Shown here: piece by piece, positions 36,891 to 43,853 of the stretch | Numbering within the stretch: the stretch's first letter is position 1 | Layout of the letters: the number at the start of each line of letters is the position of its first letter | DNA from: Candidatus Paracaedibacteraceae bacterium | GTDB taxonomy: Bacteria; Pseudomonadota; Alphaproteobacteria; Paracaedibacterales; Paracaedibacteraceae | DNA length: 64,000 nt | Assembly (NCBI GenBank): GCA_019459505.1 | Contig: JAIBEV010000165.1 | Location: 62,001-126,000, forward strand | Direction: 5' to 3' | Made by a program: the position numbers and the translations under genes | The notes under the pieces: model-generated | What the model was told of the DNA's origin: nothing | The model's input: only the letters and a program-made list of their open reading frames with translations | Databases searched by the model: none

Positions 36891-38480
36891 ATGAATAAAT
36901 TACAATTACTATCTGCTGTTACTCTTTCAACTATGTTAGGCCATGCTGTAGAAGAAACTTTTACTGCTGATCCAATGTTAGAGGACTTTATTATAATTAG
37001 CAAAGAAAAATGTTGTCATTCTAACGAATCCAATCTTACAAATTTAATCAATGAGCGGTTAGAAAAAGAAGCTGCTTTGATTGAAGAAGTTTGCGGTCGA
37101 GCAAATAAAAAGCCAAAATCTTCTTCAGCTACGGCAAAACCCTCTTTAGCTAAAATTTGTTATGTAGAAAATTATTTAAGCGATGAAGAGAAAGACGATG
37201 AAGAAATACGCTTACAAGAAATAGAAACAAGTCGAATGGAGCAAATACATGAGACCTACAACGGTCAAATTGACGGGTATTTTATAAAAAAAGGAACTGA
37301 TCAAACTAACGCTCCTCATCCAGCTAGGGACTTTCACTTAACTGAGCCCTTAAAGCAACCAAGTAAAATGACAAATTTATTAGCGCAATTATTTAACTTT
37401 GGTGGGGAATCTGAGTCAACAGCAACCCAACCTCCAAGAGTAGAGCCCCACGTAAAGCACCTGGAAAGAGAAACGGCTCAACAAGCGGAAGTAAAACCAC
37501 AACTTGAAGGGCCGCAAGAATTATCCTTATCGATAATGTCATCTTCTATTATGGAAGCAATTAGCCAACCACAATCAGCCTTAATACAAAAAGAATCAAA
37601 AAATACAACAGCGTCACAACTTCCTCGTATAATAGAAGCTGCTATTGAATCGCAACCAAAAGTAGCAGAACAGTATTCTCGCGTGACACCCCCACCGTCA
37701 CAACACCAAACTATACCTTCTCCTAATAAATCAATTATACACGTACAACCACAAACAAGCCAACAACTACCTGTAGCACCTCAAGAAGTTCGCTCGCGAT
37801 CTACCTCGACTTCTTCGCAAATAACCACTTCACAACCGCATCGACAAGCGATTTCTCCGCGCAGTGTTCCATCACAAATAACCACTGCGGCCATACAGCA
37901 AGCTCAAGTGGAAACCTCAAGAGTTGAATCACAATCTACTTCAACTTCTTCGCAGGTAACTACTTCACAATCGCGGCCACAAGCGATTTCTCCGAGCAGT
38001 GTTCCATCACAAGTAGTTACAGCGGCCACACAACCCGCTCCAGTAAAAACATTAAGAGTTGCATCACAACCTACTTCAACTTCTTCGCAGGTAACCCCTC
38101 AACAACCACGTCCGCAAGCGACTTCTCCAAGAGGTGTTCCATCGCAAGCAAACTCATCGGCTATACAACAAGCTCGAGTGGAAACTTCAAGAGTTGGATC
38201 ACAACCTACCTCGACTTCTTCGCAGGTAACCATTCAACAACCGCGTCCGCAAGCAACTTCTCCAAGAGGGGTTGTAAAACAGCCAACCTCAACAACCGTA
38301 GAGCAACCTAGCGCAATGCCAAAAAACCCAACCCCTCGAGCCATACCTCAACTTCGAGCACTGCGTAATCTACAGCTCAGATTAACGCCAATGTCGGCTA
38401 CGCAACCACATCACATGCCTTCTGTAATCTCTTCATCAACTTTAGAAGTACCCCCGCAACCTCTAAAAGTGCCACAATGA
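36891..38480 (+). CDS. Exported Ser/Thr/Gln/Pro repeat protein
   Basis: A 529-residue protein with signal peptide MNKLQLLSAVTLSTMLGHA, close to that of the 42837-43853 protein (MNKLHLLSAVALS). Residues 20-130 are mixed with an acidic patch (LSDEEKDDEE). From about residue 299, four tandem copies of a 45-residue unit follow, each containing TSTSSQ(V/I)T, then RPQA(I/T)SP and VPSQ; the fourth is cut short. The tail is Pro-rich. Repeats of low complexity with an export signal suggest a surface or host-directed protein. Function unknown. It has its own terminator. Confidence 0.75.
   Translation: MNKLQLLSAVTLSTMLGHAVEETFTADPMLEDFIIISKEKCCHSNESNLTNLINERLEKEAALIEEVCGRANKKPKSSSATAKPSLAKICYVENYLSDEEKDDEEIRLQEIETSRMEQIHETYNGQIDGYFIKKGTDQTNAPHPARDFHLTEPLKQPSKMTNLLAQLFNFGGESESTATQPPRVEPHVKHLERETAQQAEVKPQLEGPQELSLSIMSSSIMEAISQPQSALIQKESKNTTASQLPRIIEAAIESQPKVAEQYSRVTPPPSQHQTIPSPNKSIIHVQPQTSQQLPVAPQEVRSRSTSTSSQITTSQPHRQAISPRSVPSQITTAAIQQAQVETSRVESQSTSTSSQVTTSQSRPQAISPSSVPSQVVTAATQPAPVKTLRVASQPTSTSSQVTPQQPRPQATSPRGVPSQANSSAIQQARVETSRVGSQPTSTSSQVTIQQPRPQATSPRGVVKQPTSTTVEQPSAMPKNPTPRAIPQLRALRNLQLRLTPMSATQPHHMPSVISSSTLEVPPQPLKVPQ
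37785..38280 (+). repeat. 135-base tandem repeats inside the 36891-38480 gene
   Basis: Four copies start at about 37785, 37920, 38055 and 38190; the fourth loses similarity after about 28 codons. Each encodes a core with TSTSSQ near its start and SP-x-x-VPSQ in the middle. The third and fourth are most alike, which suggests recent copy-number change. Confidence 0.8.
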
Positions 38481-39384: not shown

Positions 39385-39547
39385 ACAAGATTACCTATAA
39401 AAGCACCACCAATAACTCTAAACTTTTATCTATCTTGTAACATTTTTACAACAAATGCAATTTTTACAATTAAATTTCCTCATATTTTTTGACTTTCTAA
39501 TCGTATACTTATACAACTTAAATTGTTTCATTATTAGGAGTATAAAT

Positions 39548-40231
39548 ATGAAAAAAATTTTATCAACAGCAGTAGCAGTTGCAGCTTTGGCTTCAGCCGC
39601 CGATGCAAAAGGTTTTAATGGTTTTTATGCTGGTATGGGTATTGGTATGTCCGCTCTGCACAGCACCTTTAAAGTGGGTGACATTAATAATGTAGCTAGC
39701 GATAGAGTACACGGTCAAACTGTTAGCCCTGTTCTTGATATCTTTCTAGGTTACAACAAAGTATTCCAAAACTGTTTTTCAGTAGGTGGCGAATTTACGT
39801 CTGATTTCACTTTCAATAACAAGAAAATTCTCTCAAGAATTTATGTGCGTAATACTCAAGTTAAGCGCGACTCTTATAGCTGGGGACTGCTTGCCAAATT
39901 TGGTATGCAATTTAACCAAAAAACATTAGCATTTATTGGTTTAGGTGTTAAATCACAAAATGTAAAGTACATTTACTCCCAATCAAACCCTAGTGGCACT
40001 AGTTTTGCTTTCTCTCTAAAGAACAATAAACTTAGACCTGCTTACCAAATTGGTTTTGAAAACCTATTACCTGGTGATGCAGTAGCTTTACGGATGGCTT
40101 ATACATTTGTTCAAGGTAGTAAGAAATCTAGAGCAAATATTGCTAGCCCTAACTTTACATTTATTAATGGCAAGGCATCTGCAAAAAACAACGAGCACTT
40201 AGTTAAGCTTGGTATTTCATACCGCTTCTAA
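39548..40231 (+). CDS. Outer-membrane beta-barrel protein, OmpA-like
   Basis: A 227-residue protein. An open frame extends to 39455, but ATG at 39548 follows GGAG and starts a clear signal peptide (MKKILSTAVAVAALASAADA). The mature part begins KGFNGFYAGMGIGMSALHS, the usual first strand of OmpA/opacity-type barrels. Further strands include FLGYNKVFQNCFSVGGEFTSDF, WGLLAKFGMQF and AYQIGFENL. It ends in KLGISYRF, a terminal aromatic as used by the Bam machinery. The specific function is unknown. Confidence 0.8.
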   Translation: MKKILSTAVAVAALASAADAKGFNGFYAGMGIGMSALHSTFKVGDINNVASDRVHGQTVSPVLDIFLGYNKVFQNCFSVGGEFTSDFTFNNKKILSRIYVRNTQVKRDSYSWGLLAKFGMQFNQKTLAFIGLGVKSQNVKYIYSQSNPSGTSFAFSLKNNKLRPAYQIGFENLLPGDAVALRMAYTFVQGSKKSRANIASPNFTFINGKASAKNNEHLVKLGISYRF

Positions 40232-41221: not shown

Positions 41222-42454
41222 TTATAGGCGGTGACCATTAAAATAAGTTACAACATCAGCGTGTTGTAGTCTCATTCCAGCCTGAGGCTGTTGCTGTTGT
41301 ACTGCAGGTTGCACCACTCGTGGTTGTTGCTGCTGTACTACCTGAGGCTGCTGTTGCTGCTGTAATCGTATTGCAGGCTGTTGCACTCGTGGTTGTTGCT
41401 GCTGTTGTTGTGGTGCTCCATCTTGATAAAATGCTTCATTAATTCCGGCAGCAGCATCACCAACAAAATTACCAAGTTCATCATTAATGTTGGAAGTGTC
41501 TAAAAGATCATAATATTGTCGGAATCTACGATCAATAGCGGCTTGAGCAAGTTGTTGATCCTGAAGATTTCTAGCAAAAACGATAGTAGCGGCTTGTCTC
41601 CAATTATTGCGAATATTATCTAGAATATTTCTCACCATACCTGCATTTACATTAGTATATAATTCCATTCCAAGTAAGCGAGACAGTGGATGATCTTCTG
41701 GCAATCTAGCAAGATATTCTGTTAGTACTTCATTGCACCTTGTAGAGAACCCATGGACATCAATCTGTACCTCACCACCATTTCCATTAAGGCGATACAC
41801 GCCATCAATATTTATGCCATCAATGGAACCCTGTAGACAGAGAAGAATCCGTTGCGATTGTCCTACCCCACATACAGTATGATTATCATCTTCTACAATT
41901 TCAGCTAAACCTTTTTTGAGTAAAGTTAGTCGCATGTTTACTTGATCATTGGCAGCATTTTGAGAACCTGATATTATCGGATATTGTTCTATAGCATTCC
42001 ATATCAATGTTAAAACTTCATCCATTCGCACATGAGCGTTATTAATCTGCTCTGAAAAGAAATATCCATTATTTTGAATTGCATTGAATCCCTTAATTGC
42101 ATCATCAATATAATTTCTTGTGGCAACATGACGCCCTGTGGAATAATCACGGCAATTCACTTGCCGTACCATTCGCGGATTATTATATTCTTGCGGGTTA
42201 TTCCTATAAGCATTTAACCATGCCCCAATTTGCTGCATAGCTGTGGCTGTGGGTATATGAGGTTCAATCACAGCAAACAATTGTTCAGCAGATTCGCGAC
42301 ACATCTGGCGACGCTGCCGATTCATTACATTTTCACCATTTCCCCACCCATCAGCGCGTCCCTGATCGTTTAAGGGGGCAACCTCCATTGCTGATACTGC
42401 AGTTGCTGACAGGCAAACACCTAATAATAAATGTTTGAAAATTTTCTGACTCAT
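41222..42454 (-). CDS. Exported protein with Gln-rich tail ending YFNGHRL
   Basis: A 410-residue protein with a signal peptide (HLLLGVCLSATAVSA, cleavage after VSA). Residues about 25-340 look folded, mainly helical, with cysteines (MCRESAEQ, VNCRDYS, TVCGVGQ, LLCLQG, TRCNEV). A Gln/Pro/Val-rich low-complexity region follows (about 345-395, repeated PRVQQPAI and PQVVQQQQ). The protein ends in DVVTYFNGHRL, almost the same ending as the next minus-strand gene upstream (42837-43853). No family recognised. The shared tail suggests a common sorting or partner signal, which is inference. Confidence 0.75.
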   Translation of the reverse strand: MSQKIFKHLLLGVCLSATAVSAMEVAPLNDQGRADGWGNGENVMNRQRRQMCRESAEQLFAVIEPHIPTATAMQQIGAWLNAYRNNPQEYNNPRMVRQVNCRDYSTGRHVATRNYIDDAIKGFNAIQNNGYFFSEQINNAHVRMDEVLTLIWNAIEQYPIISGSQNAANDQVNMRLTLLKKGLAEIVEDDNHTVCGVGQSQRILLCLQGSIDGINIDGVYRLNGNGGEVQIDVHGFSTRCNEVLTEYLARLPEDHPLSRLLGMELYTNVNAGMVRNILDNIRNNWRQAATIVFARNLQDQQLAQAAIDRRFRQYYDLLDTSNINDELGNFVGDAAAGINEAFYQDGAPQQQQQQPRVQQPAIRLQQQQQPQVVQQQQPRVVQPAVQQQQPQAGMRLQHADVVTYFNGHRL

Positions 42455-42790
42455 AATTATATTTAATCCTTTTAGCTAAATAACTATATATTAAAAATCT
42501 AGTTAAAGCTGATAGTATCCTAGCACTTTATTATATTAGAAATTTTATGCTTGCTTCCTATCAGCATCTATATTGATATAAGAAGGTCTTTGAAATACAT
42601 CAAGCTTTTTTTAAAGATCTTGTTAAGAAATTCTATTTTATTATTTTTTAGAAAGCTTAAGTTTTTTCCTAGAAGCTTAAAATGTGGTCTTTGAAATATT
42701 ACTTTAGCTTATTTAAGCATAAACCTACTATCGTTAATAATGAACTAGATTCTTTAATTATTTTACTTCTTAGTAAGAAAATGCAATTTA
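42455..42790. other. AT-rich intergenic stretch, no gene seen
   Basis: Between the two paralogous-tail genes. Very AT-rich, with runs of T and A and a loosely repeated AAGCTT (near 42600 and 42655). It should carry the promoter of the 41222-42454 gene on the minus strand, but I see no confident -35/-10 pair. No tRNA or small frame with a ribosome site. Confidence 0.4.
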
Positions 42791-42821
42791 AAAAATTACC
42801 ACTACACGTGTAGTGGTAATT
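42790..42821 (-). terminator. Perfect 28-base palindrome followed by T run
   Basis: AATTACCACTACAC at 42794-42807 is exactly mirrored through position 42821, with CACGTG at its centre. On the minus strand six T follow the stem, 16 bases past the stop of the 42837-43853 gene, so a terminator is likely. The lack of loop bases means the central pairs cannot all form. Confidence 0.7.
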
Positions 42822-42836
42822 ATTAGTAAAGTTAGA

Positions 42837-43853
42837 TTATAGGCGGTGGTCACCAAAATAATGAACATTCGCGACTGTAACTACTTGTTTTGGCAATGCT
42901 TGCTGACGCTCTGCTAGAGCTTGAGGCTGCTGCTGTGGGAGTTGACGAAGCTGCTCTATGGCATTTTCAAGAGCTGCTTGAGCCGCCTCCATAATATTCA
43001 TATTATCGGCATGTTGAAGAAGATGGATAACATTTTGGACAGCTTGATGGAGTTCTCTTAAATCGTGCTCCTCAGCAATCTCAAGAAGTTGCCCAAGCTT
43101 ACCTGCCATATTTTGTGCTTCAAACTGTTGCACTGCATTATTAAATAAATCACGAAGCTGAACGAGACCTGCCTGAACTGCTCTGACTCCAGCATTTCTA
43201 CCAGCATCTTCAAGTTCATCTACAGCACGCACTATATCAGCATACCTAAAGCTCTGCATAGCGCGTTGTAATTCGGCGGAAGCAGTTTGAAGTGCTACTA
43301 CGCCATCCTGGTTTTGGGCGTTACGAAGTGTTTCCAAAGAAGTTTGAATGGTCTGAGTAAGCCTTTCTACTGCATCTTGAAATGCTTGAAATCCCTCTTC
43401 TAGTACCTCTTCTAAATCAAAGTTCTCCTCATAACGCGGCTGCACTTCCTCAACCTCAGCCTGGAGATCCTGTACTGGCGCACCAAGATTTACAGCATTT
43501 TCATCTTCTTCTTCTTCTTCTTGATCGCGGGGTTGTTCAAATCTGAGGTCAAGGTTACCTTGGCCAGCCCCTCCTCCTACTAGGTCCTCAGCCCTTGGTA
43601 GCTGAAAATTAAATACTGGCTCTCTTCCGAGCTGAGCACCTTCTTCCTCTGCTTCCCTCTCATCTACCAGCAGTGGTATCGCATCCTCTCTGCCTTCCTC
43701 GATAGCTACTCTCTCCTCTGCATCTCTGTCAACTACTACTTGAAGAGGATTAGCAGGTTGAGCTCCAAAGTCTAGGAGGTTTTCTTGATCAGCTGCCTTT
43801 GCCGTTAAAACAGAAAGTGCAACTGCCGAAAGTAAGTGTAATTTATTCATCAC
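42837..43853 (-). CDS. Exported acidic helical protein ending YFGDHRL
   Basis: A 338-residue protein with signal peptide MMNKLHLLSAVALSVLTAKA. It is very acidic in the first 150 residues (EEEEEDEN, AEVEEVQPRYEENFDLEEVLEEG). It is then Ala/Gln/Leu-rich and probably coiled coil or helical bundle (about 160-320: TASAELQRAMQSFR, VVRAVDELEDAGR-like). It ends in VTVANVHYFGDHRL. The last eight residues are near-identical to those of the 41222-42454 protein. The signal peptide resembles the one at 36891. No family recognised. Confidence 0.75.
   Translation of the reverse strand: MMNKLHLLSAVALSVLTAKAADQENLLDFGAQPANPLQVVVDRDAEERVAIEEGREDAIPLLVDEREAEEEGAQLGREPVFNFQLPRAEDLVGGGAGQGNLDLRFEQPRDQEEEEEDENAVNLGAPVQDLQAEVEEVQPRYEENFDLEEVLEEGFQAFQDAVERLTQTIQTSLETLRNAQNQDGVVALQTASAELQRAMQSFRYADIVRAVDELEDAGRNAGVRAVQAGLVQLRDLFNNAVQQFEAQNMAGKLGQLLEIAEEHDLRELHQAVQNVIHLLQHADNMNIMEAAQAALENAIEQLRQLPQQQPQALAERQQALPKQVVTVANVHYFGDHRL

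Follow-up and report, generated by a model that had tools for sequence, protein, structure and literature searches.

C-terminal signals of type IV secretion are carried by client proteins that have no Sec signal peptide. MYXO-CTERM, GlyGly-CTERM/rhombosortase and PEP-CTERM represent the tripartite CTERM signals (PMC11980579, PMC3237569). Little has been learned about the molecules that Holosporales symbionts present to their amoeba hosts or release inside them. We analyzed a 64 000-nucleotide stretch of DNA (the window; contig JAIBEV010000165.1 of assembly GCA_019459505.1) from a Candidatus Paracaedibacteraceae bacterium, in which a preliminary description had noticed two otherwise different exported proteins with the same C-terminal tail, and had taken this tail for a possible sorting, secretion or partner-binding signal. 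The genome of the window (G000) belongs to the Odyssella/Paracaedibacter group and was compared with four congeners (G001 to G004), among them Candidatus Odyssella thessalonicensis L13 (G003) and a Paracaedibacteraceae MAG. Our preferred reading, to which we give a probability of about 0.45, sees in the tail a C-terminal module in repeated use, which would dock unlike Sec-exported proteins to a common envelope or surface partner, with a reduced or replaced form of it in the window. The features concerned are listed by position in the window.

39455..40231, plus strand: gene for an outer-membrane beta-barrel (OMP_b-brl/OmpA-like) that lies next to the tailed genes and converges with them in 5 of 5 genus genomes
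41222..42454, minus strand: gene B, a 410-aa exported protein with a Q-rich linker and the tail VVTYFNGHRL; body conserved in G002, G003 and G004
41222..41245, minus strand: tail of B, TATTTTAATGGTCACCGCCTATAA (YFNGHRL and stop)
41261..41413, minus strand: Gln/Pro-rich low-complexity linker of B, recognized by composition
42389..42454, minus strand: signal-peptide-like segment of B (MSQKIFKHLLLGVCLSATAVSA), recognized by hydrophobicity alone
42794..42821, minus strand: terminator-like hairpin with a 12-bp stem, 3' of gene A
42837..43853, minus strand: gene A, a 338-aa exported acidic, helical-looking protein with the tail NVHYFGDHRL
42837..42860, minus strand: tail of A, TATTTTGGTGACCACCGCCTATAA (YFGDHRL and stop)
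43791..43853, minus strand: signal-peptide-like segment of A (MNKLHLLSAVALSVLTAKAA), recognized by hydrophobicity

Both reading frames are real, that of gene A starting at GTG with ATG as its second codon, and they end in the two related tails as described. The likeness extends to the codons and the stop, as had also been claimed: the two genes agree in all of their final 12 bases, stop codon included (CACCGCCTATAA), and in 21 of the final 25. With an alignment score of 31, the pair of tails lies above shuffles (p about 0.003). The bodies give no BLASTP match to each other at E ≤ 0.01, so the objection that the tail might reflect common descent of the whole proteins fails, and the export proposed for both agrees with a hydrophobic, signal-peptide-like segment at each N-terminus (judged by hydrophobicity). 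Terminator-like hairpins in the region do not exceed the number expected from shuffles.

Could two C-termini be so similar by chance? Just two window proteins share the tail, and among all protein pairs of one genome about 50 are expected to share five of seven end residues by chance. A and B are adjacent, however, and for adjacent pairs at this level the expectation is about 0.04 per genome (a post hoc criterion), while YFxxHRL ends are expected in about 2e-4 proteins per 2500. The codons match as well, and coincidence is already disfavoured because orthologues in the congeners share tails too; we regard it as very improbable.

The preliminary description had proposed a search of the proteome and of relatives for further exported proteins ending in YF-x(2)-HRL, and such proteins did not turn up. 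Exact YFxxHRL occurs at two places in the 2.64-Mb genome of the window, namely A and B, and the exact matches across 96 genomes are scattered, chance-like and not above control. A relaxed search of G000 with two mismatches allowed returned 198 hits versus 186 in the control, which is no excess, and none of the hits inspected closes a sizeable reading frame (minus-strand places were left un-reoriented). In the window genome, the literal YFxxHRL is a pair and not a widespread tag. The idea of a general tag therefore finds no third protein there, while across the genus a tag-like module stands at the same position.

In G002, the orthologues of A and B are adjacent and carry the tails VGEVVRINGVRHRWNGTKLVRL and VGEVVRVDGVRHRWNGTKLVRM; the body of its B orthologue is 69% identical, with the module standing where window B has YFNGHRL. 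The A and B tails of G003 are LGTIKIVDGWVYRFNGIDWSRLRRG and VGEIKTENGWLWRFNGEDWSRLRRAD, and a B homologue and its neighbour in G004 both have the tail IGDKKTINGKLHKFTVKGWERL. In every species having B, this gene and its neighbour share a tail, and the tail varies between species. The module is 22–24 residues long with the consensus [IV]G[DET]xx...NG..x[RK][WF]NGxxWxR[LM]. A first tail profile added carriers with other bodies (four in G001, one in G003 and one in G004), and with the enlarged profile (A5) the four congeners yield 13 tails, all with E no higher than 6e-12. These are C-terminal or at most four residues before the end, usually after a P/Q/E/A-rich linker, and one congener genome carries three to four tailed proteins. 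The claim that unlike exported proteins keep a common tail is thus supported, and more strongly than the window alone had allowed, by 13 proteins with several unrelated bodies in four congeners.

In the other 37 genomes of the order, A5 has no convincing match. Among 385 genomes sampled from the class, a set in which the genus was covered by G001 and the window's own genome, just three partial matches reach E ≤ 0.001. Hits elsewhere in the order or class, such as RNase H and short frames, are partial and chance-like and were rejected as further copies of the module. The literature searched (one open-access library) yielded no description of the tail, and Pfam, PHROGs and NCBIfam gave no convincing names for bodies or tails. 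The module appears to be genus-specific and undescribed in the open-access literature searched. One tailed body (L068 7071-8279) resembled OTU-like peptidases by eye; this assignment was discarded, as Pfam gave it no support.

The module is separable from the bodies that carry it, because homologues of the B body outside the genus (G054, G007) occur without linker and tail, and paralogues of tailed body C in G003 have different C-terminal ends. As separate observations, two of the body-C paralogues (L091, L092) share another tail, STDxDRxxxLSSxxLRR[EG], and paralogues of gene B that are split in two frames were seen with the tail kept in G002 (L030 13626-14123 + 14159-14866) and without it in G000 (L025 1492-2013 + 2025-2495). 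The window also encodes a third exported P/Q-rich protein (36891-38480, plus strand), which has the signal peptide MNKLQLLSA in common with gene A. Its last residues are LKVPQ, those of the G002 homologue (L030 17450-18865) are SVKVPQ, and this may be a further conserved tail.

Codon usage in the shared tails separates two processes. The G003 tails are identical at 14 of 22 residues, with 1 of 12 degenerate codons identical at the shared residues; the peptide was kept while the DNA diverged, and we therefore attribute this likeness to selection on the peptide and not to recent copying. In G004, the A and B tails are identical at 66 of 66 nt and the likeness continues past the stop, as it also does between C and D of G001, so 3' ends have been copied between neighbouring genes. 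For the window pair, with its 21 of 25 final bases, selection or copying could each fit, and the identical codons can be explained by recent 3'-end copying between neighbours as in G004. Taken further, the window match might be copied 3'-end sequence of no function, which would suit its 12 identical final bases as well as the identical tails and similar downstream DNA in G004. Such an origin does not explain why the G003 tail was kept with almost no common codons, nor why neighbouring unlike genes with common tails recur in 4 of 4 congeners. Functionless copying could still fit the window pair itself, and we consider it unlikely.

Under the preferred docking reading, the YFxxHRL tail would be the window's counterpart of the module. 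It occupies the same gene pair and position and likewise follows a Q-rich linker; in sequence, the window tails show no significant relation to the module. Neither tail is among the best matches listed in a six-frame hmmsearch of the window with A5, the same profile has no match in the G000 genome, and no frameshifted remnants of the module were seen 3' of the window genes in the six-frame profile search. Judged by eye, DVVTYFNG of window B is similar to the module's first strand and turn, which in G002 read EVVRINGV. We infer from this that the window tail may be a reduced or shortened form of the module, and wholesale replacement of both window tails is equally compatible with the data.

For the C-terminal 40 residues of G003 B, with four tails aligned, AlphaFold2 predicts a three-stranded beta meander (strands 18-21, 24-28 and 33-38) with pLDDT of 90-94 over the module, while the body is poorly modeled in the full-length protein (mean pLDDT 50). 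Structural likenesses of the tail model include none at E ≤ 0.001. Foldseek found no significant match in the PDB, and the top rows of VIA-align were CBM5/12 chitin-/cellulose-binding domains, a weak likeness (Z about 3, rmsd 2.1 over 32 residues) in a search with no family at Z ≥ 5; Foldseek against the CBM5/12 fold gave E > 1. Membership of the CBM_5_12 sequence family was rejected, with 1 of the 13 tails matching at E ≤ 10, the best tail scoring 15.4 bits (E 0.019) versus the curated cut-off of 26.2, and a profile-profile probability of 9.6%. A search of G000-G004 for this family at E ≤ 0.1 had no hit. Other Holosporales have proteins of about 125 aa that end in a CBM_5_12-like domain (L129, L132, L134-L137, L143, L150); as relatives of the module these were dismissed, being a different family that the window's genus does not have.

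The foldon of T4 fibritin is a small C-terminal beta hairpin that follows a fibrous stalk and has a DG...DG-x-W pattern; the predicted tail module may resemble it. A comparable hairpin at the stalk end might trimerise fibrous or coiled-coil exported proteins, in line with a small predicted beta meander placed C-terminally after coiled-coil or low-complexity stalks. Phage tail-fibre and collagen-repeat proteins are also numerous among the best Foldseek neighbours in viral models (BFVD), with probabilities mostly of 0.9-1.0 and E of 0.09-1. Foldon chains, however, are absent from the PDB profile-search matches of the tail at E ≤ 10, and several tailed bodies are not obviously fibrous; we judge oligomerisation to be about as improbable as functionless copying. 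In the sequence search of the PDB, the tail resembled repeat proteins over single strands only, and no stretch reached significance.

If the tail docks to a partner, the neighbouring outer-membrane barrel is a candidate, because it is adjacent to the tailed genes in all five genomes (orthologues 47-63% identical) while the genes beyond the cluster differ, with rnc in G000, G002 and G003 and dprA-topA in G001 and G004. Relatives of the barrel are also present in genomes without the module, so synteny alone may account for the adjacency. In G001 (L067 15729-18435) and G004 (L032 18247-18792), genes recognized by eye as type VI secretion genes (TssB, TssC and Hcp-like) are found a few genes away from the tailed cluster.

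A sorting or docking role is likely for the tail. In the docking model that we prefer, Sec would export the tailed proteins, the tail would stay on the mature protein, and the low-complexity, flexible linker would hold the beta module away from the body. The module could then dock unlike exported proteins to one putative envelope or surface partner, which might be a glycan or a protein of the outer membrane, for instance the neighbouring barrel. In the window species, the same two genes would carry YFxxHRL as a reduced or replaced form of the module. Alternatively, the tail may be a C-terminal secretion or sorting signal that is read after Sec by a dedicated export or anchoring machine, with a logic like that of CTERM or type IX systems. 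Unlike exported proteins do share it at or near the C-terminus, three to four in one genome and usually after a flexible linker, but the client proteins are few per genome, and the tail is predicted to fold as a mini-domain. Kyte-Doolittle means over 15 residues reach at most 0.95 in the tails, which indicates no transmembrane segment, and the module is therefore not a tripartite CTERM signal; we find this alternative doubtful. A type IV C-terminal signal was also rejected, as hydrophobicity, the measure used here, exceeds 2 over a stretch of 10 residues near the N-terminus of most tailed proteins.

In its widest form, the docking proposal is that of a new C-terminal sorting or docking system in Gram-negative amoeba symbionts, based on a 24-residue, non-membrane beta-meander tag that would be swapped between unlike exported proteins and change in step within species, as if tracking a changing partner. 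We think this possible, if somewhat on the unlikely side. A small, searchable C-terminal tag that marks exported proteins with unrelated, unnamed bodies would point to one common partner and make the host-interface question (which proteins, and how they are delivered) accessible to straightforward tests with fusions and pull-downs. The differences in the tail from species to species provide a natural series for testing co-evolution with such a partner.

In comparison with known systems, the module resembles CBM5/12 domains (PF02839) as a small three-stranded beta domain, and the G002 tail has a Y-x-x-G-[DE]-x-V-like first strand, yet the tail is about half as long as the domain. To the phage tail-fibre and collagen-repeat beta modules in BFVD it is similar by an rmsd that for many of them is near 1 Å over 24-30 residues and by a probability of 0.97-1.0 for the best, although the E-values are 0.09 and above. 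Unlike the tripartite CTERM signals (PMC11980579, PMC3237569), it has no transmembrane helix and is predicted to be a folded beta meander; like them, it is one short C-terminal tag carried by many unlike Sec-exported proteins.
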